Source: Lactococcus garvieae (GTDB taxonomy: Bacteria > Bacillota > Bacilli > Lactobacillales > Streptococcaceae). From it: a stretch of 64,000 nucleotides of DNA. This document shows positions 1 to 54,199 of this stretch, in pieces. Position numbers and translations under genes: made by a program. Position 1 is the first letter of the stretch. Every line of letters starts with the position of its first letter. The stretch is from positions 1 to 64,000 of the forward strand of contig NZ_WIVG01000001.1 in the NCBI RefSeq assembly GCF_016758115.1, in the 5' to 3' direction. A model generated the notes under the pieces. The model searched no databases and was not told where the DNA came from. It worked only from the letters and a program-made list of their open reading frames with translations.

Positions 1-524
1 TTATGTTCTTAACGGGTTTACGTATAGGAGAATTGTTGGCTCTAAGGTGGGAAGCGATTGATTTTGAAGCATCGACTTTAACAGTTGCGCATACCTTAAA
101 TTTACATGGCTATGTGGCAAATGCGCGCCAGCTCCTCTCCCCTAAAACAGCCCATTCTTATAGAACAATTTCATTAAATGAAAGATGTATCGAAATCCTT
201 ACGCATTTCCTTAAAGAATGTTATGATAAGGATTTTGTCTTTGTGGATGAAAGAGGTCATATTTATGGTAGAGATGAGCTTTCTCATTATCTTAAAAAAA
301 TCTGTTTTGAAAAATTTGGTAGAGAGGACTCTGATAGAAATTACCACTTACATATGTTAAGGCATTCTCATATCTCCTTGTTGGTAGAAATGAATGTACC
401 GATTAAAGCGATTATGGAGCGAGTAGGACATTCGGATGAAAAAATGATTTTACAGGTCTATAGCCACGTGACTCAAAATATGCAAAATGATTTGAAAGAG
501 AAGCTAAACGCACTTGACTTTTGA
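1..524 (+). CDS. Tyrosine recombinase/integrase, C-terminal part (cut by window edge)
   Basis: C-terminal catalytic domain of a phage-type tyrosine integrase, which cuts and rejoins DNA at attachment sites. Counting from the first visible Met at base 3, the box I arginine is R7 (TGLRIGEL), the second box is H117-x-x-R120, H143 lies in the GHS motif, and the nucleophile is Y153 in QVYSHVT. The reading frame is open at base 1, so the N-terminal arm-binding and SAM-like domains are outside the window and the ATG at base 3 is not the real start. The gene marks the end of a prophage or integrative element to the left. An att site may lie in 525-660, but I could not define one. Confidence 0.9.
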   Translation, partial: MFLTGLRIGELLALRWEAIDFEASTLTVAHTLNLHGYVANARQLLSPKTAHSYRTISLNERCIEILTHFLKECYDKDFVFVDERGHIYGRDELSHYLKKICFEKFGREDSDRNYHLHMLRHSHISLLVEMNVPIKAIMERVGHSDEKMILQVYSHVTQNMQNDLKEKLNALDF

Positions 525-649
525 GAGTAACCAAATATTAACCAAAAGTATAAGAAAAGGGAGGAAAAAAGAGGAAAAAGAAGGACAAAAGAAATTGTGG
601 GAAAAGCTGTTATAGCGCTTGTTTACAGGGTTTTTGTTCTATTATTTTC

Positions 650-655
650 TAAAAT
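650..655 (+). promoter_or_regulatory. -10 hexamer six bases before the ATG of the YdcF-like gene
   Basis: TAAAAT is followed by six bases (aaactt) and then the ATG at 662. No Shine-Dalgarno is visible. This spacing puts the expected transcription start at or next to the A of the ATG, so the mRNA may be leaderless. The hexamer is not preceded by TG, unlike the other five cases in the window, and I see no good -35. Confidence 0.45.
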
Positions 656-661
656 AAACTT

Positions 662-1759
662 ATGGGAAATGATATTGTGAACAATAATGACTTTGGTTTT
701 TTTGTTGTCGGTTTGATTTTGACTGCTATTTTTGCTTTTATGTCACTCTTTTTTTGGTGGAAAAGAAAGCGACTGCGCGATTTACGAACCTTGACACTAG
801 GACGTTTGACTTTTTTATATTTATTTTGTTTGCTTGTGGCATTAAATGGTCTACTTGGATCGATGCTTGTTTTGACCGATGGCGGGCGCAGCATTTGGCT
901 GTTTTTATTAGGTATTGAAGTTGTAGTTTTTATGATTTTTTCAATGTTTCTTGGGCTAGTTATTCCTCTTGGTATCGTTATTCTTACAGTAAAGATGTGG
1001 CGGCGTGAAACGAGGACTGTGGCTAATCTTCTCCTTCCAATAGTTGTTCTTTTTTTCTTAGTTATTGATGGTATTTTTCTTGCTATGGGCAATTTACCAG
1101 AGCACTGGCAATGGCTTTCCGTTTTGAGTTGGGTTTTTCCTCTCTTGTCACTTTATTTGGCTTGGCAGTTTACAGTCTTTTTTCTATCAAGTTGGGTGTA
1201 TGGCAGACGCACACGTAAACTTGAAGCAGCTTTTCATGTCGTGCTCGGTGCGGGCTTGATTGATGGTGAACGTGTCGGAATATTACTTGGAAACCGTATT
1301 AAAGCAGCAGTTCAAGCTGTTCGTGATGACCAAACTATCGTGGTTTTTTCTGGAGGTCAAGGGACAGATGAGAAAGTATCGGAAGCCTCAGCTATGCAAA
1401 AATATGCCCACGAAGAGCTTGGTTTTCCATCCGAGCGTACGCTTTTGGAGGAAAAATCACGCACAACATATGAAAATCTAGTTTTCTCATCAGAATTAAT
1501 CAAGGCGAGATTTCTTTTCTTTACATCAGATTATCATGTTTTTCGAGCAGCTCTTTTTGCAGCAGCTCTTGGCTTAGAGGCAGAAGGAGGCAGAGGTGGA
1601 AAAACTGCAATGTATTATCGTGTTCCGGCATTTATCCGTGAGTTTATTGCGGTGCTAAATACCGAGAAGAAGAAACATATGATTTGGGTGGCAACGATTA
1701 TTGGACTTCTGTTTATTATTACGATGATACAGCTTTTTCTTTATTATTATGTGCCCTAA
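662..1759 (+). CDS. YdcF/ElyC-family (DUF218) membrane protein
   Basis: 365-residue protein with several hydrophobic helices in the first half (about residues 10-30, 50-70, 75-115, 120-140, 150-180) and a cytosolic or surface C-terminal DUF218 domain from about residue 190. Domain landmarks are the VLGAGL start, FSGGQGTDE, the EEKSRTTYENL segment and FFTSDYHVFRA, which match the YdcF/SanA/ElyC family linked to envelope integrity. The exact substrate of this family is not settled. The gene stands alone between the integrase remnant and a resistance transporter, has its own terminator, and appears to start without a ribosome binding site. Confidence 0.85.
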   Translation: MGNDIVNNNDFGFFVVGLILTAIFAFMSLFFWWKRKRLRDLRTLTLGRLTFLYLFCLLVALNGLLGSMLVLTDGGRSIWLFLLGIEVVVFMIFSMFLGLVIPLGIVILTVKMWRRETRTVANLLLPIVVLFFLVIDGIFLAMGNLPEHWQWLSVLSWVFPLLSLYLAWQFTVFFLSSWVYGRRTRKLEAAFHVVLGAGLIDGERVGILLGNRIKAAVQAVRDDQTIVVFSGGQGTDEKVSEASAMQKYAHEELGFPSERTLLEEKSRTTYENLVFSSELIKARFLFFTSDYHVFRAALFAAALGLEAEGGRGGKTAMYYRVPAFIREFIAVLNTEKKKHMIWVATIIGLLFIITMIQLFLYYYVP

Positions 1760-6343: not shown

Positions 6344-6352
6344 TGTTAAAAT
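6344..6352 (+). promoter_or_regulatory. Extended -10 of rimM, six bases before the ATG
   Basis: TGTTAAAAT is followed by attggt and the ATG at 6359. There is no Shine-Dalgarno. The rimM-trmD mRNA is predicted to begin at the start codon. Confidence 0.6.
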
Positions 6353-6358
6353 ATTGGT

Positions 6359-6874
6359 ATGACAAAATTTTACAATGTAGGCACAATAGTGAATACACAA
6401 GGACTTCAGGGAGAAGTACGTGTAATTTCAGTTACTGATTTTGCTGAAGAACGTTTTGCAAAAAATACAGTTTTGGCCCTTTTTGACAAAAAAGGAAATT
6501 ATGTCCAAGATTTGAAGGTTAAAACTGCGCGTAAACAAAAGAATTTTTATATCATTAAATTTGAAGGATTATATCATATCAACGAAGTTGAAGCCTTTAA
6601 AGAATTTAGTTTGAAAATAGCTGAAGATAAGCTAACAGAACTGGATGAAGGCGAGTTTTACTATCACGAAATCATTGGTTTAGACGTTTATGAGCAGGAC
6701 AAATTAATTGGCCAAATTAAAGAAATTTTGCAACCAGGGGCTAATGACGTTTGGGTGGTCAAGCGTAAAGGAAAACGTGATTTGCTTCTTCCCTACATTC
6801 CACCAGTGGTGTTGAATGTGGATTTAAAAGCGAGAAGAGTTGATGTAGAAATTATGGAAGGTTTAGACGATTAA
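6359..6874 (+). CDS. rimM: Ribosome maturation factor RimM
   Basis: 171-residue 16S rRNA processing factor that helps mature the 3' domain of the 30S subunit. The N-terminal barrel begins [20 protein letters not shown] and the C-terminal PRC-barrel carries [13 protein letters not shown] and the [14 protein letters not shown] block. It is one base apart from trmD, the usual order. Unlike the common rpsP-rimM-trmD arrangement, no rpsP or KH-domain gene is upstream. The start lacks a ribosome binding site and lies directly behind an extended -10, so the mRNA may be leaderless. Confidence 0.96.
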
Positions 6875-12757: not shown

Positions 12758-12766
12758 TGCTAAAAT
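12758..12766 (+). promoter_or_regulatory. Extended -10 of cca, six bases before the ATG
   Basis: TGCTAAAAT, then agaagt, then the ATG at 12773. No Shine-Dalgarno in the preceding 20 bases. Predicts a leaderless cca mRNA. Confidence 0.65.
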
Positions 12767-12772
12767 AGAAGT

Positions 12773-13969
12773 ATGAAACTAGAGAATTTGCCGTCAGAAT
12801 TTGTAAAAGCTTTGCTGGTTTTGGAAAAAATACAGGCACATGGTTTTGAGGCTTATTTTGTAGGAGGAAGCGTTCGTGATGCGCTTTTGCAAAGGCCAAT
12901 CCATGATGTGGACATCGCAACCAGCGCATATCCAGCTGAAACCAAAGCCATATTTCCGCATACCATCGATGTGGGAATTGATCACGGTACCGTGTTGGTC
13001 TTAGCCGGTCAATCTGAAGCTGAACATTATGAAATTACTACTTTCCGTACAGAAAGCACTTATACAGATTATCGCCGTCCAGATTCTGTAGATTTTGTCC
13101 GAGAACTTTCGGAAGATCTAAAACGGCGAGACTTCACGATTAATGCCTTTGCTATGGATACTGAGGGACAGATTATTGACTTGTTCGATGGCCTTTCCGA
13201 TTTAGCAGAGTCACGCTTGTGTGCTGTTGGAATTGCAACGGAACGTTTCAATGAAGATGCGCTCCGGATTATGCGTGCAATGCGCTTTGCTGCAACTTTA
13301 AATTTTAATGTTGAAGAAGAAACCTTTAAAGCCATGCAGGCACGAGCCCATCTTCTAAGCAAAATTTCGATTGAACGCATTTTTATTGAACTCGACAAGT
13401 TGCTTCTGGCTAAAGATTGGAAAAAAGGCTTAGAAATATTGCTTGCATCGGAAGCTTATACTTTCTTGCCTGACTTGCAAGAAAAGGCTATACAAGCATT
13501 ACTTCAAAATTTAGAGACAGGTTTTACCTTTGCCAATTCAGCACAAGCTTGGGCTGCGCTTTTAGTACACAGTGACCACGTAAATGTTAAAGATTTCTTG
13601 AAAAAATGGAAAGTGTCTAACGACTTTATCAAATATGTGTATGATTTGACAGAAGCTTACAGGCTTGAAAGTTGGAGTTTAGAGAGCATTTATCGCTATG
13701 GTTTAGAAAAAGCTCTACTTGTTGACCAGCTTAAAGTTGCTGCAGGCCAAGAAGTTGATTGTGACCAGGCTTATTTCTACGATGAAAATCTCCAGATTCA
13801 TAGTAAGTCAGAGCTTGCAGTAACTGGTAATGATATTATTCAAACATTTAATATCAAGCCAGGTCCGATTTTAGGGAAGTTGCTGCATCAGATTGAAAAA
13901 CAAGTCGTTAACAACCAATTAAAAAATGATAGAAACAAAATTTTAATATATATTAAGGAGATTCTATGA
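12773..13969 (+). CDS. cca: CCA-adding enzyme (tRNA nucleotidyltransferase)
   Basis: 398-residue class II nucleotidyltransferase that builds or repairs the CCA end of tRNAs. The catalytic head has [12 protein letters not shown] (residues 26-37) and the metal-binding DVDIAT, then the [12 protein letters not shown] block, the [15 protein letters not shown] neck motif, and helical body and tail domains. The N terminus [10 protein letters not shown] is the usual one for lactic acid bacteria, so the start is secure although it has no ribosome binding site. The stop overlaps pepD by four bases. The ssrA gene here does not encode its CCA end, so it depends on this enzyme. Confidence 0.96.
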
Positions 13970-29479: not shown

Positions 29480-30196
29480 TTAGTGTTTCTGCCGTCTCGA
29501 AAACTCAGTAAAGCGGAACTTGTCCACCTGATGTCGGCTTTCTGTATATTGGAAAATACTATTGTCGGAGAGGTAAACATGACTGCGCACACTAACAACA
29601 TGGCGGTCTTTAGGGTTCAAGTCCAAATAGTCTTTGTCCTCAGTGTTAACAAAATCAATAGTAATCTCTTTTTGAGCATAGGAGATGTCTAAATTAAGCT
29701 GCTGCTCAAGATAAGCATAAAGGGAAGTTTGAATCATATCTTCTGTCATATTTGGTGCAATAGAAGCTAAGATATAGTCGCGATCAAGAATGACAAAACT
29801 GTTATCAATATTTCGGCGGCGCAAGATATGAAAAGCTTGAGCTCCTTCTTCAAAAAAAGAAAGCTCTGAAAGCTGCTTGTCTACAGTAATTTTCTCAAAA
29901 GTTAGGATTTCTGTAGTAGAGACAAAGTTTAAAGAATCTTTTAACTCTTTGAAAGAGATTAAACCGGATATGGGGAACATCAATCTTTCACGTGGAATAA
30001 CGATTGATCCGAAACCATGTCGCCGTTGAATAATGCCACTTTCTTCTAAAATTTTTAAAGCTTGTCTTACCGTTGCACGACTGGTTTGATAGATTTCTGT
30101 GAGCTGATTTTCGCTAGGCAAAAGTTCATTTTCGGGATAGGTTCCCTCAATTATTTTTTTCTCTAAATCTCGAAGAATGATTTCATACTTTTTCAT
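29480..30196 (-). CDS. treR: GntR-family trehalose operon repressor
   Basis: 238-residue repressor, with an N-terminal winged helix (LLPSENQLTEIYQTSRATVRQALKIL at about residues 24-49, then the RRHGFGSIVI wing) and a C-terminal UTRA effector domain that should bind trehalose-6-phosphate. It is divergent from the trehalose PTS and hydrolase genes. The start is ATG 30196; a longer frame to 30292 would run over the promoter region. No Shine-Dalgarno: TGCTACACT lies six bases before the ATG, so a leaderless mRNA is predicted. Confidence 0.9.
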   Translation of the reverse strand: MKKYEIILRDLEKKIIEGTYPENELLPSENQLTEIYQTSRATVRQALKILEESGIIQRRHGFGSIVIPRERLMFPISGLISFKELKDSLNFVSTTEILTFEKITVDKQLSELSFFEEGAQAFHILRRRNIDNSFVILDRDYILASIAPNMTEDMIQTSLYAYLEQQLNLDISYAQKEITIDFVNTEDKDYLDLNPKDRHVVSVRSHVYLSDNSIFQYTESRHQVDKFRFTEFSRRQKH

Positions 30197-30202
30197 AGTA
30201 TA

Positions 30203-30211
30203 AGTGTAGCA
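30203..30211 (-). promoter_or_regulatory. Extended -10 of treR, six bases before the ATG
   Basis: Read on the minus strand: TGCTACACT, then tatact, then the ATG at 30196. The hexamer TACACT is weaker than the others of this class, but it has the TGn extension. Confidence 0.5.
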
Positions 30212-36734: not shown

Positions 36735-37847
36735 ATGACCTATAATGAAAATATGCAACATAAGAAAAAAACAATTGGAATTATTGGCGGTGGTCAGTTA
36801 GGGCAGATGATGGCTATCTCTGCACAATATATGGGTCATAAAGTAATTACTTTAGACCCTAATCCGAACTGTCCCGCAGCAAAATGTTCGGACGAGTTGC
36901 TTATTGCTGATTACGATGATGTCGATGCGCTTCTAAAACTAGCCTACGCTTGTGATTTAATAACTTACGAGTTTGAAAATGTATCATCAAAAGCACTGTA
37001 TGAATTAGAAACATGTGTAGACATTCCGCAAGGTATCAGATTGTTGGAAATCACGCAGAACCGTAAATTAGAAAAAGAGTTTTTAGAAGAGTGTGAGGTG
37101 AAGATAGCACCATGGAAGCTGGTTTGTGATGCTCAAGACCTTCCAAAAAAGGTGACCAAGAAACAAGTTCTTAAAACGACAACAGGAGGCTATGACGGGC
37201 ATGGGCAAGTTGTCTTAAAGAGTGAAGAGGATTTGAAAGAGGCAATAAAATTAGCAGACAGTGCTGAGTGTGTTTTGGAGGACTTCGTTAATTTTTCTTA
37301 TGAAATTTCGATTATTATAAGTGGAAATGGTAAAGATTTTGTTACCTTTCCCTTATGTCAAAACGAGCATGTTAACAATATTTTGCACCGTACGATTGCT
37401 CCTGCACTAGTTTCTTCTGAAATAAGCGAAAAAGCAGAACACTTAGCTCTAGCAATAGCAAAAAAGCTCCAGCTTTCAGGAACGCTTTGTGTTGAAATGT
37501 TTCTTACAGAGTCAGGGGATATTTATGTTAATGAACTTGCTCCGCGTCCACATAACTCAGGTCATTACACGATAGAAGCCTGCGATTTTTCACAATTTGA
37601 TTTACATATCAAAGGCATACTGGGTGAAAAATTGCCCGAGCCTCGTCTTTTAAAAAAGGCGATTATGATAAATATCTTAGGTCAGGATGTTACTAAAGTT
37701 GAAAAAATAAACCGTGAACATCCCGAATGGCACATCCATGATTATGGGAAATTAGAAGCAAAAGCAGGCAGAAAAATGGGACACATCACAATTCTGACAG
37801 ATGACATTTTAGAAAGCCTAAGGGAAATATCAAGTTTGCAGATATAG
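36735..37847 (+). CDS. purK: N5-CAIR synthetase
   Basis: 370-residue ATP-grasp enzyme that carboxylates AIR with bicarbonate. TIGIIGGGQLGQMMA is the N-terminal dinucleotide-like fold, KTTTGGYDGHGQVV the ATP-binding loop, and NELAPRPHNSGHYTIEA the substrate motif. ATG 36735 has AGGGGAAAG upstream; ATG 36753 is possible. The next gene follows 30 bases later. Confidence 0.95.
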   Translation: MTYNENMQHKKKTIGIIGGGQLGQMMAISAQYMGHKVITLDPNPNCPAAKCSDELLIADYDDVDALLKLAYACDLITYEFENVSSKALYELETCVDIPQGIRLLEITQNRKLEKEFLEECEVKIAPWKLVCDAQDLPKKVTKKQVLKTTTGGYDGHGQVVLKSEEDLKEAIKLADSAECVLEDFVNFSYEISIIISGNGKDFVTFPLCQNEHVNNILHRTIAPALVSSEISEKAEHLALAIAKKLQLSGTLCVEMFLTESGDIYVNELAPRPHNSGHYTIEACDFSQFDLHIKGILGEKLPEPRLLKKAIMINILGQDVTKVEKINREHPEWHIHDYGKLEAKAGRKMGHITILTDDILESLREISSLQI

Positions 37848-45182: not shown

Positions 45183-46103
45183 TCAAAATTTCTTCAAATA
45201 AATTTTATCAATGTAATGGTTGGCAGCTTTGTGCAAGATGACTTCGGCGCGGTTACGTGTCGGCTCGATATAGTCGCGCAAGTTAGGCAGATTAGTATTT
45301 GTCCATGTTTGACGCGCGAGCTGCATCACTTCATCGTAAGGCATTTTCGTAAACTGGTGATAATAGTTATGAGGATCATTTTCAGCAAGTTTGAGTAGGC
45401 TGTCAAACCGTTCCAAGTACCATTTTTCAATCAAGTCCTCATCAGCATCAACATAAATAGAGAAGTCATAAAAATCACTGACATAAAGAAGTTCACTCTG
45501 CGGATTTTGGAGAACATTTATTCCCTCTAAAATCAAAATATCAGGCTGGTCGATAATCTGGGTTTTATCTTCGATGATGTCATAAGTTTCATGTGAATAA
45601 AGGGGGATTTCGCATCGCTCACTGTTTTTTACACGATAGAGAAAGTCTAAGAGGCGTTCCATGTCATAACTTTCAGGGAAGCCTTTACGGTCTAACATGT
45701 TACGCTCTTCTAAAATTGCTGTAGGATAAAGAAAACCGTCTGTTGTCACAAGCTCTACGCTTAATTTTTTAAATTCACGGGAAAGGAGGAGCTGAACGAG
45801 ACGCGCAGCAGTAGATTTTCCGACAGCGACAGATCCAGAAATCCCAATGATTAGTGGGGGCGTTTGAACAATTTTTTGTAAAAACAATCCTTTGGAGAAA
45901 CTTAAATCTTCGATATTCTTTTTATATAAACGTACCAAATGTATTAATGGGAGATAGACGTCAATAACGTCTTGCAGTGAAATTTCATCATTGAGTGAAC
46001 GAATGGCATCCAGCTCCTTATTTGTCAAGGGAACTATGGAAGACAGGTATAAATTTTGCCAAGTTTCTCGTGAGATTTCATCGTAATTAATGAATTTATT
46101 CAT
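45183..46103 (-). CDS. coaA: Pantothenate kinase, type I
   Basis: 306-residue kinase of the first step of coenzyme A synthesis, normally feedback-inhibited by CoA. The P-loop [12 protein letters not shown] is at residues 87-98. TTDGFLYP and the [14 protein letters not shown] segment, then ILEGINVLQ, are standard. The ATG at 46103 lacks a Shine-Dalgarno and is six bases behind TGCTAAAAT, so a leaderless mRNA is predicted. It diverges from the methyltransferase-pdp operon. Confidence 0.95.
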
Positions 46104-46109
46104 AAGGAT

Positions 46110-46118
46110 ATTTTAGCA
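46110..46118 (-). promoter_or_regulatory. Extended -10 of coaA, six bases before the ATG
   Basis: Minus strand TGCTAAAAT, then atcctt, then the ATG at 46103. No Shine-Dalgarno. Confidence 0.65.
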
Positions 46119-46270: not shown

Positions 46271-46279
46271 TGATAAAAT
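46271..46279 (+). promoter_or_regulatory. Extended -10 of the nucleoside-salvage operon
   Basis: TGATAAAAT, eight bases before the ATG at 46288. No Shine-Dalgarno, so a very short or absent leader is also possible here. Confidence 0.55.
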
Positions 46280-46287
46280 AAAATGTA

Positions 46288-46893
46288 ATGGTAAAAACAA
46301 ATATGTATTATGAAGACAACCGTGATTTAGCACATGACGTGCAGGAGCTATCGGTTGAACTTTTGGGTCTTCCCCTACACTTTCTGACTGATGCAGGTGT
46401 ATTTTCTAAAAACGCTATTGATTATGGTTCACGTGTGTTGCTGGATAATTTTCAACCCGAAGGAGCGAAGACTTTGCTTGATGTAGGTTGTGGTTATGGC
46501 ACACTGGCTTTAACTTTAGCAAAAAAATATGGCTTGAAAGCCACACTTGTAGATGTAAATAGCCGTGCTCTTGATTTAGCAAAGAAAAATGCAGATAAAA
46601 ACAATATAAAAGTTGATAATATTTTTTTATCTAATATATATGATAATGTTGAACAAAGCTTTGATGCTATTATTTCAAATCCCCCTATTCGTGCGGGAAA
46701 AGAAGTGGTACATGCTATTTTATCTGATGCTTATATGCATTTAAATGATAATGGTCATTTGACAATCGTGATTCAGAAAAAACAGGGCGCGCCGAGTGCG
46801 CAAAAGAAAATGAATGCTGTCTTTGGCAACTGTGAGATTGTCGCGAAAGATAAAGGATATTACATTTTAAGGAGTTATAAGGAGAAACTATGA
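46288..46893 (+). CDS. RsmC-like SAM-dependent methyltransferase
   Basis: 201-residue class I methyltransferase with LLDVGCGYGTLAL as motif I and the NPPIRAG catalytic loop (N-P-P-I), as in RsmC-type enzymes that methylate rRNA guanines. The target is not certain. The ATG overlaps no upstream gene and lacks a ribosome binding site. The stop overlaps pdp by four bases, so it heads the pdp-deoC-cdd salvage operon, a common lactic acid bacteria arrangement. Confidence 0.87.
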   Translation: MVKTNMYYEDNRDLAHDVQELSVELLGLPLHFLTDAGVFSKNAIDYGSRVLLDNFQPEGAKTLLDVGCGYGTLALTLAKKYGLKATLVDVNSRALDLAKKNADKNNIKVDNIFLSNIYDNVEQSFDAIISNPPIRAGKEVVHAILSDAYMHLNDNGHLTIVIQKKQGAPSAQKKMNAVFGNCEIVAKDKGYYILRSYKEKL

Positions 46894-51663: not shown

Positions 51664-53226
51664 TTACAAGGTAACTGTGAAAGTTGTTCCTTTACCGGGA
51701 ACACTAATCACATCGATATGTCCTTGTAGCTCTCTTACATTTTTATCAACGATTGATAATCCAAGTCCTGTTCCTGTCACTTGTGTTCGGCCTTCATCCA
51801 CTCGATAGAAACGCTCAAAGATTCTAGACTTTTCAATTTCTGTCAGACCAGGTCCATTATCAGTTACGGTGAAAATAACTTTCTTCTTATCTTTATGGAG
51901 ACCGACAAATATCTTTCCATGCTCATCGGTGTATTTTATAGCATTTTCAATCAGATTTTCAAAAATACTGTGCACCATTTGACGATTTGTCACTTGGGAA
52001 ATATTCGAAATTTTTGTCTGGAGGAACAAGTGCTTTTCATCGAGTAACGGTTGAGAGGTGCTTAGAATCTCCTCGACAAGGGCTGTAAGATTAATTTTTT
52101 TCTTTTCAATGTGAATGTTTTGTTTGGTCAAGAGCAGAGTATCCTGAACTAAGTCAATCAGGCGAGAACTTTCCTTACTGATAATCTTCGAAAATTCTTG
52201 CCGGTCAGCTTCAGGAAGAGAGTTGTCTTTAAGCAACTCAGCAAAGCCTTTGATTGAAGTCAACGGTGTTTTTAACTCATGACTGACGTTCGCAATAAGT
52301 TCATTATGCGCATTAAGAGTACGTTTAAAAGCTGTAATATCAAGTAGAGTAACTAAGAAGCGATTGTCCAAATCAGGAAGCGGTGAAATACGGACTTGAT
52401 AATAGGCATTTATATTTTCGAAATAGAAATCCTTTTCCTGAGTTGTTGGATTAAGCATCTTATCCACCAAGAAAGTTAAGAAGTCCGCATAAGGACTGAA
52501 AATGTCGAGATTGTGTGTGTCTGCAAATTCATTTTTAAAAGCAGCATTTGTTTTACGAATCTTGCCTTTGGCATTGTAAATAAAGATGGGAAACTGGAAG
52601 AGCTCAATAAATTCGTAAATATTTTCTTTCTTTTCACTGTGCGACAAAATCTGATTTTGAATATATTCGCCCAAAGAATTGAGAGCAGATGTCACTTTGT
52701 CATCATTTTCACTCATCAGATAGCTCTGTGTTAGAGGACTACGTTCAATATTCTTTATTTTAGCAACAATATCCTGTGTAAAGAGATAGTTACGTCTGGC
52801 GTGAACAAAAACATAGAAGGCACAAGCAAGATAAACGAGTGTAGCAAAACCTCCCACCATCAGATTAGTGAACCAAGGGGAGGTACGACTATCAACAGCA
52901 TGGAGATATGCGGTTATTACACCGTCTTTACGTATTGGACTGGTGATTTCGATAGAGTGACGAGTGACGGCTTGTGCATATTCAGCTCCCGCGTCAATCT
53001 TTTTAGTTTCCTCATTTCGTGTGCTTGCAGGCCAATACTGGAACTTGCTAGGTAGAGCGGAATCAGGGTGCTCTGAAAGGAATGTTTTAGTCGTTTCAAT
53101 CGCGTGTAAAACACGGTTTGTATCTGTTTTTAGAATCTGTATGTTGAGAAAAACGAGCAAAGTTACAGTCGCAACAAGATAAATAACTGTCGAAATTACA
53201 ATGTTTTTAAGCTTTATTTTTTTCAT
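51664..53226 (-). CDS. PhoR-like sensor histidine kinase
   Basis: 520-residue kinase with two membrane helices (about residues 10-30 and 125-150) around an extracellular sensor domain, a PAS domain, and the kinase core. H316 in NVSHELKTPLTSIKGF is the phosphorylation site. N box ENLIENAIKYTDEHG and DNGPGL, GTGLGLSIV complete the ATPase. Start taken at ATG 53226; a TTG at 53244 is also in frame. It overlaps the response regulator gene. The signal is unknown. Confidence 0.88.
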   Translation of the reverse strand: MKKIKLKNIVISTVIYLVATVTLLVFLNIQILKTDTNRVLHAIETTKTFLSEHPDSALPSKFQYWPASTRNEETKKIDAGAEYAQAVTRHSIEITSPIRKDGVITAYLHAVDSRTSPWFTNLMVGGFATLVYLACAFYVFVHARRNYLFTQDIVAKIKNIERSPLTQSYLMSENDDKVTSALNSLGEYIQNQILSHSEKKENIYEFIELFQFPIFIYNAKGKIRKTNAAFKNEFADTHNLDIFSPYADFLTFLVDKMLNPTTQEKDFYFENINAYYQVRISPLPDLDNRFLVTLLDITAFKRTLNAHNELIANVSHELKTPLTSIKGFAELLKDNSLPEADRQEFSKIISKESSRLIDLVQDTLLLTKQNIHIEKKKINLTALVEEILSTSQPLLDEKHLFLQTKISNISQVTNRQMVHSIFENLIENAIKYTDEHGKIFVGLHKDKKKVIFTVTDNGPGLTEIEKSRIFERFYRVDEGRTQVTGTGLGLSIVDKNVRELQGHIDVISVPGKGTTFTVTL

Positions 53227-53911
53227 CAGAGAAGTAATACCCAAATCCTCGTTTTGTTTTTATAAATTGATTGTCTAACTTTTTACGAATCTTACTGATC
53301 AAAACGTCAATAGTCCGTGTTTCTGCAGCAGAAGATATTCCCCAAAAATGTTGGAGCAATTCTTCACGCGAAACAACATCACCCGAGCGATCAATCAAAA
53401 GTTCCAAAATTTCGAATTCACGCTTGGTCAAATCTAAAGGCTTTCCATCAAATATACAAACTTTTTTTGTAAAGTCTAGTTCTAGACGATCGAACTTTAC
53501 TTTGGATTTTTCCAAAACTTTTTCATTTCCTAAAGTCTGATTATAGTATTGATGACGACGAATGAGCGCATTAGCCCTTACGATTATCTCTTTTAGAGGT
53601 GTTGCCTTGTCCAAATATTCATCAGAACCCGAATTGAGTCCTGTCAGCTTCATTTCCTCATCATCTCGTGCGGTGAGGATTAAAATAGGCGTGAAATTCT
53701 GTTTTTTACGTAAAATTTCCGTCACCTCAATACCAGAAAGCTCAGGCATCATCAAATCCAGCAAGATGAGGTCGTAATGATTTTTCTTAGCTTTCTCTAA
53801 GGCTTGCTTTCCACCGCTGACAGTTGTAACCTCAAAATCATTCTGCCGAAAGTTGTAAGAAAGTAAGGTTAAAATCGAACGATCATCATCCGCAATTAGA
53901 ATCTTTTTCAT
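53207..53911 (-). CDS. OmpR-family response regulator
   Basis: 234-residue regulator. The receiver has the acidic pocket ADDD (8-10), the phosphorylation site D52 and a conserved Lys (K102). The usual Lys-Pro-Phe after it is Lys-Ala-Thr here. The C-terminal winged helix ends TRTIDVLISKIRKKL and KTKRGFGYYF. The start ATG 53911 is six bases after TGCTATAAT, with no Shine-Dalgarno, so it is probably leaderless. Paired with the kinase downstream by overlap. Which genes it controls is not visible. Confidence 0.9.
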   Translation of the reverse strand: MKKILIADDDRSILTLLSYNFRQNDFEVTTVSGGKQALEKAKKNHYDLILLDLMMPELSGIEVTEILRKKQNFTPILILTARDDEEMKLTGLNSGSDEYLDKATPLKEIIVRANALIRRHQYYNQTLGNEKVLEKSKVKFDRLELDFTKKVCIFDGKPLDLTKREFEILELLIDRSGDVVSREELLQHFWGISSAAETRTIDVLISKIRKKLDNQFIKTKRGFGYYFSDEKNKA

Positions 53912-53917
53912 TTCTCT

Positions 53918-53926
53918 ATTATAGCA
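53918..53926 (-). promoter_or_regulatory. Extended -10 of the response regulator, six bases before the ATG
   Basis: Minus strand TGCTATAAT, then agagaa, then the ATG at 53911. The 53927-54199 region upstream shows no gene. Confidence 0.65.
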
Positions 53927-54199
53927 TATGTGTAGCATGACAATCATTGATTATTATCTAATTTAAAGTGCAGATACTGTTTTTTTATGAACGCGTAGCT
54001 AGCTGTTGTTCATTAGAACTGGAAGTTTGTGTTTGACTGGATAAGTTATATCTGTAAAGAGAGCCTAACATCTATAGAGGTGTACTTATGATTACAGCAA
54101 GAATTATGATAGAATTATAAAAGATAGGGAATTTATGTTATGAATAAATTTGAAAATGAATGTTAAAAAACAGACATTTTCTTAGAATGCCAGGAAGTT

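Follow-up and report, generated by a model that had tools for sequence, protein, structure and literature searches.

A promoter layout shared by six genes

The window, i.e. the whole stretch of 64,000 nucleotides analysed here, is the beginning of contig 1 in a 2.3 Mb Lactococcus genome of the garvieae / petauri / formosensis / ileimucosae group (contigs labelled G000:C-number). Six of its genes share a -10 hexamer followed by six bases and an ATG, and all six lie where the original prediction had placed them. Five of the six also carry the predicted TGn extension (TGT at rimM; TGC at cca, treR, coaA and the response-regulator gene), and -35 elements are weak or absent, the features of extended -10 sigma-A promoters. 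The sole site of the six without TGn is that of the YdcF-like gene, which reads TTC TAAAAT. A methyltransferase gene has a gap of eight bases instead (TGATAAAAT-N8-ATG), as had been claimed.

650..664, + strand: YdcF promoter and start, attR of an integrated element; TAAAAT 650-655, spacer AAACTT, ATG 662
662..1759, + strand: gene for a YdcF-like (DUF218) membrane protein, 365 aa (Pfam PF02698)
6344..6361, + strand: rimM promoter and start; TGT TAAAAT, spacer ATTGGT, ATG 6359
6359..6874, + strand: rimM, ribosome maturation factor, 171 aa (TIGR02273, above cut-off)
12758..12775, + strand: cca promoter and start; TGC TAAAAT 12758-12766, spacer AGAAGT 12767-12772, ATG 12773
12773..13969, + strand: cca, CCA tRNA nucleotidyltransferase, 398 aa (NF009814, 516 bits against a cut-off of 290)
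30194..30211, - strand: treR promoter and start; TGC TACACT, spacer TATACT, ATG 30196
29480..30196, - strand: treR, trehalose operon repressor, 238 aa (TIGR02404, above cut-off)
46101..46118, - strand: coaA promoter and start; TGC TAAAAT, spacer ATCCTT, ATG 46103
45183..46103, - strand: coaA, type I pantothenate kinase, 306 aa (TIGR00554, above cut-off)
46271..46290, + strand: methyltransferase-gene promoter and start; TGA TAAAAT, eight-base spacer, ATG 46288
53909..53926, - strand: response-regulator promoter and start; TGC TATAAT, spacer AGAGAA, ATG 53911
53207..53911, - strand: OmpR/PhoB-type response regulator, 234 aa from the leaderless ATG (Pfam Response_reg and Trans_reg_C)

The mechanically called open reading frame of the response regulator begins earlier than the leaderless ATG, at 53947. 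We note a further TATAAT-N6-ATG at 36753, within the first codons of purK. It could be an internal leaderless start, but a Shine-Dalgarno-led ATG lies 18 bases upstream, and we set the site aside as probably coincidental.

The strict motif is in excess at a spacing of six

TGnTAnAAT-N6-ATG is matched four times in the window against an expectation of 0.27, and none of 100 dinucleotide shuffles reaches four matches. The looser form in which the scan had originally been proposed, TGNTANNNT-N6-ATG, also stands above chance, but mildly (7 matches against 3.2 expected, with 7 reached in one of 100 shuffles), and two of its seven matches are not gene starts. TANNNT alone shows no peak at a spacing of six; a clear signal therefore needs the -10 box given as TAnAAT.

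Genome-wide, the strict motif occurs 90 times with six bases before the ATG, 39 times with seven and 19 times with five, whereas the reversed pattern is found 7 times. Spacings 0 to 15 sum to 356 matches, those besides six and seven average about 16, and the count at six exceeds the average of the other spacings more than fivefold (Poisson p ~1e-36). The genome scan that had been named as a possible refutation of the prediction is thus clearly positive for the strict motif. In 464 kb of this and related genomes, where only ATGs opening at least 60 codons were counted, a spacing of six is found 21 times and every other spacing from 0 to 30 between zero and five times. The peak is specific to ATG, as GTG, TTG, CTG and ATC following TGnTAnAAT show none at six. 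All 18 Lactococcus genomes carry the excess, with 67-112 matches each against 1-9 for the reversed pattern. Summed over these genomes, six bases occur 1,621 times, seven 809 times and five 470 times; six is the mode in every genome, with a ratio of six to seven between 1.3 and 3.2.

Start context and absence of Shine-Dalgarno motifs

We read the DNA around all 90 genomic sites. An open frame of at least 59 codons follows 69 of them, while 21 have no long frame, two of the latter being junctions of inserted elements. The base preceding the ATG in the 69 sites is T in 43, C in 17, A in 8 and G in 1; this pyrimidine preference (60 of 69) is expected if transcription starts on the A of the ATG. 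The variable base of TGn is C in 23 sites, T in 18, A in 18 and G in 10, and TGY, originally proposed as the rule, is consequently not special. No common -35 element was found over the 69 sites, the best matches resembling those in shuffled sequence with the exception of a few strong ones.

The predicted absence of Shine-Dalgarno motifs holds for the whole set: a short-motif scan detects none upstream of any of the 69 starts, and none of the 69 frames has an internal Shine-Dalgarno motif with a start codon in its first 25 codons. The longest match to the anti-Shine-Dalgarno complement within 20 bases spans 2-5 bases, reaching five at 6 of the 69 sites and never more. Among ordinary genes of the window, 16 of 26 have a match of at least five bases, 11 of these one of 6-7.

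The distance is maintained across Lactococcus

All genomes of the genus contain orthologues of coaA, cca, rimM and the response regulator. In every readable upstream region (70 of 70) the -10 box lies six or seven bases from the ATG (cca 17/17, rimM 18/18, coaA 17/17, response regulator 18/18), and TGn is present in 67 of the 70, including 15 of those of the response regulator. Farther upstream, the DNA is unrelated between distant species. The first residues past the ATG are conserved across species. That the distance is kept while the flanks diverge indicates that the arrangement is maintained, though not at exactly six, since about a third of the orthologues have seven bases. The proposed constant spacing of six therefore has to be relaxed to six or seven, rarely eight, with six retained as the most frequent value.

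The other sites have narrower support. TGnTACACT-N6-ATG at treR is preserved in only three relatives (G004, G005 and G007), and a single relative supports YdcF. The methyltransferase gene has eight bases throughout the garvieae group and seven in G006 and G009. The cca gene of Streptococcus has no -10 box upstream of its ATG, and conservation of the cca layout thus ends at the genus.

Leaderless genes in Lactococcus and Streptococcus

Descriptions of such leaderless genes in Lactococcus already exist. For L. lactis IL1403, Zheng et al. (2011, PMC3160421) predicted TA-led, i.e. leaderless, genes whose TAtAAT precedes the start codon by about 12 bases, with an extremely strong TG peak. The present sites belong to the same genus but to another species and gene list, and the controls for spacing and codon and the per-gene conservation come from the present analysis. 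Rend-seq of L. cremoris revealed a bimodal distribution of leader lengths, either below 5 or around 40 nt, with ~13% of mRNAs leaderless (PMC10986495). In streptococci (PMC4448216, PMC6431027, PMC6212727), leaderless transcripts make up 8% in S. agalactiae (all with AUG, 90% starting on its A), 8.6% in S. pyogenes (81% of these are leaderless in S. agalactiae too) and 9% in S. pneumoniae, where a reporter established that the leaderless promoter of pbp2A is efficiently translated. Leaderless transcripts thus amount to 8-13% in these species, in which starts were measured, whereas here they are deduced from sequence. Given these published cases, the six sites are not a new class but further members of a known phenomenon.

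Leaderless initiation and its alternatives

We propose that the six sites are extended -10 promoters of the housekeeping sigma factor, at which transcription would start on the A of the start codon or one or two bases off. The genes would be transcribed as leaderless mRNAs, and the 5'-terminal AUG would be recognised for translation without a Shine-Dalgarno motif. They would belong to a class of some 70 or more such genes in the genome studied, common to the genus, and at YdcF the layout comes from the end of an integrated element, which has taken the place of a native leaderless promoter at the same distance. The specificity for spacing and codon, the lack of Shine-Dalgarno motifs both upstream of and inside the genes, the pyrimidine before the ATG and the conserved distance all point to the leaderless initiation originally predicted. 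We consider leaderless mRNA very probably the best explanation of the sites, including the layout brought by the element to YdcF, even though the YdcF box, without TGn and without a clear -35, counts against it. The precise position of the start and the way in which the ribosome binds are predicted.

Such layouts might arise by chance, since TA-rich upstream DNA often holds -10-like hexamers and the six sites were picked by hand; the missing peak of TANNNT and the mild excess of TGNTANNNT-N6-ATG in the window would fit. The strict motif, however, with its more than fivefold, ATG-specific excess, its recurrence in 18 of 18 genomes and its persistence in orthologues, already refutes this explanation, to which we assign a negligible probability. 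The promoters might instead be real, with translation beginning farther in at a Shine-Dalgarno-led codon. Three sites do have a box and a short 5' region followed by a Shine-Dalgarno-led gene, namely the promoter of an aldo/keto reductase (AKR) gene, C69:1236 and C46:22846. We regard this as very improbable for the class, because a search of codons 1 to 25 found no internal Shine-Dalgarno start in any of the 69 long frames and the residues just after the ATG are conserved between species.

The mRNAs may also carry leaders of one to three bases rather than being strictly leaderless. If the start were fixed seven bases after the -10 box, spacings of seven and eight would give leaders of one or two bases, and both occur, the former in about a third of the orthologues and the latter at the methyltransferase gene; moreover, six outnumbers seven by modest factors in each genome (1.3 to 3.2). 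Against this stand the mode of six in every genome and the S. agalactiae transcripts, which begin on the A of AUG in 90% of leaderless cases, and such short leaders are in our judgement an equally improbable general explanation. Under the preferred reading, leaderless initiation, Lactococcus, a tractable genus of low GC content, would offer in these genes well-conserved cases for studying leaderless translation, for which the strict motif would be a simple predictor.

At G000:C69:1236 (- strand), the -10/N6/ATG opens a frame of seven codons, MKYFWRL, which holds the GGAGG Shine-Dalgarno motif for the next gene, whose product has a TetR-like start (MPRGTREKIVN). The short frame is a possible leaderless upstream ORF.

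Genes that carry the layout

Approximately 17 of the 69 genes (a raw share, by family assignment) encode RNA-modifying or ribosome-assembly enzymes, a fraction that looks high. RNA- and ribosome-related products among the family assignments include RsuA type, RsmD, RlmD type, a 23S G745-type methyltransferase, KsgA, TruA, Era, RsgA, YqeH, SmpB, RimM, Cca, ArgS, YbaK, a D-aminoacyl-tRNA deacylase and an ABC-F protein. Higher leaderless proportions in RNA processing were reported by Zheng et al. (PMC3160421). Enzymes of cofactor metabolism also occur (CoaA, CoaE, AcpS and MenG). The suggested range of "regulators and RNA or cofactor enzymes" is partly right: RNA enzymes are conspicuous and cofactor enzymes are present, but regulators are few, and genes of DNA repair and recombination (UvrC, Pol IV, RecX, Ogt, XerS) and of the cell wall (MurB, MurF, PBP3, LytR) carry the layout too.

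An integrated element replaces the native -10 box

The missing TGn at YdcF is explained by the origin of its promoter, contributed by an integrated element with its right end. About 137 bases of this end and, farther upstream, an integrase gene precede YdcF in the window.

3..524, + strand: tyrosine integrase, C-terminal part, cut by the contig start; ~90% identical to the copies on G000:C42 and C64
525..655, + strand: right end of the element, with TAACCAAA repeats beside the integrase gene and the element-borne TAAAAT box

The C42 copy matches the phage-integrase catalytic domain PF00589 (8.7e-26); the window copy is 90% identical to it and truncated. The 130 bases of the right end in the window are 97% identical to those on C42 and 81% to those on C64. 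PDB entries 6emy, 6en0 and 6emz (Int protein, that of Tn1549) are distant sequence matches.

The related genome G007 has an empty YdcF site (TTTGCTAAAATAAAACT-ATG), and the native YdcF promoter of the window genome lies on contig C72, where it runs into ATGGAATGGAGTGATAGATACTAACAG, the left end of the element. Left ends of the same kind are found on C62 and C80, right ends on C42 and C64. The empty site of G007 and both junctions can thereby be compared at three sites, YdcF, FolD and AKR. Upstream of the left junction, the flanks at these three sites match the empty site with 90-99% identity, versus 35-40% for the flanks upstream of the right junction. In all three, the native -10 box is replaced by the element's TTTTCTAAAAT, while the six bases to the ATG (ATTG at AKR) are retained. 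The sequences of these six bases at the two junctions differ at YdcF (AAAACT/AAACTT) and FolD (GATAGT/AAAAGT) and agree at AKR. The element loci are window 3-664 and G000:C72:12386, C62:3340, C80:38-84, C64:1-5770 and C42:3422-4100.

The element at folD spans ~5.7 kb. Its products are a DUF1310 protein and other cargo, a nucleotidyltransferase-domain protein, the integrase and a small protein whose position resembles that of an excisionase; genes for conjugation or replication were not recognised in it. As side observations, the left-end cargo of the C62/C64 elements comprises DUF1310-type proteins and lipase-like proteins without Pfam hits, and in these elements the succession of nucleotidyltransferase-domain protein and small protein resembles a toxin-antitoxin pair.

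Related integrases mostly adjoin predicted leaderless genes

Integrases or integrase fragments at least 58% identical to the window copy lie directly upstream of YdcF, FolD, YqeH, RlmB, RecG, YoaK, ArgR and a phosphoesterase gene, and in this small sample, which includes several draft assemblies and some fragmentary copies, all eight genes have -10/N6/ATG at the junction. Exceptions are AKR, with the same layout at a leadered gene, and C110 and G010:C11, whose right junctions are not at gene starts. A more distant integrase relative (40%) adjoins QueA without the layout. For six of these genes, we searched the relatives with one query joined from their first 110 residues. They are natively leaderless, with six or seven bases, in 15 of 15 cases for FolD, 17/17 for RecG, 7/7 for YoaK, 15/16 for YqeH, 15/16 for RlmB and 7/9 for the phosphoesterase, each count including one or two element-holding genomes.

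We infer TAWAAT-N6-AT to be the sequence that the integrase recognises; the six bases may form its overlap, and the element-borne box may be an active promoter. It appears reasonably likely to us that the attachment site of this integrase family is the leaderless layout itself, TAWAAT followed by six bases and AT[G]. Strand exchange would take place in the six-base gap and would thereby remove the native -10 box and put an element-borne one at the same distance, so that the gene would stay leaderless, possibly under control of the element. Alternatively, insertion may weaken the gene, since the element's box has neither TGn nor a clear -35. If the proposal is correct, the gap of six bases would serve both to set the transcription start and as the overlap for recombination, and mobile DNA would have a whole promoter class to land on, replacing promoters at genes such as folD, recG, rlmB, yqeH and argR. 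The literature searched, with its incomplete coverage, yielded no integrase family specialised in leaderless starts; the integrase association is the new part of this work, the leaderless phenomenon itself being known.

Kindred systems exist. SpyCI islands insert into mutL at its 5' end, and streptococcal ICEs do likewise at rbgA, ftsK and ebfC (PMC3430984, PMC4129442, PMC4701971). As with the Lactococcus elements, insertion by a tyrosine integrase takes place where a housekeeping gene begins and can exchange the promoter of that gene. In contrast to these, one Lactococcus integrase family inserts at no fewer than eight different leaderless starts, its junction falls between the -10 box and the ATG with the spacing kept, and the element is small (~5.7 kb at folD), lacking recognisable genes for conjugation or replication. 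TnGBS and Mutator-like DDE elements (PMC4701971, PMC3942029) likewise target housekeeping promoters as a class, but these employ a DDE transposase and insert 15-16 bases upstream of the -35 box, whereas the Lactococcus elements employ a tyrosine integrase at the -10 box and start codon. Tn916/Tn1549-like integrases have a variable six-base coupling sequence, to be compared with the six-base gaps that differ at YdcF and FolD and agree at AKR.

Two further loci were noted. At G000:C112:489-526 and C85:7500-8006 there is an integrase of a second type, with TGTTAAAATAAGCCT as the right end; on C112 this right end runs directly into the left end of another element, suggesting tandem elements at yqeH. 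On G000:C101 and C110, another copy has its junctions at the extended -10 box (TGTTATAAT) of a HIT-family-like gene on the opposite strand, and it may hence be the -10 layout, not the start codon, that is targeted.
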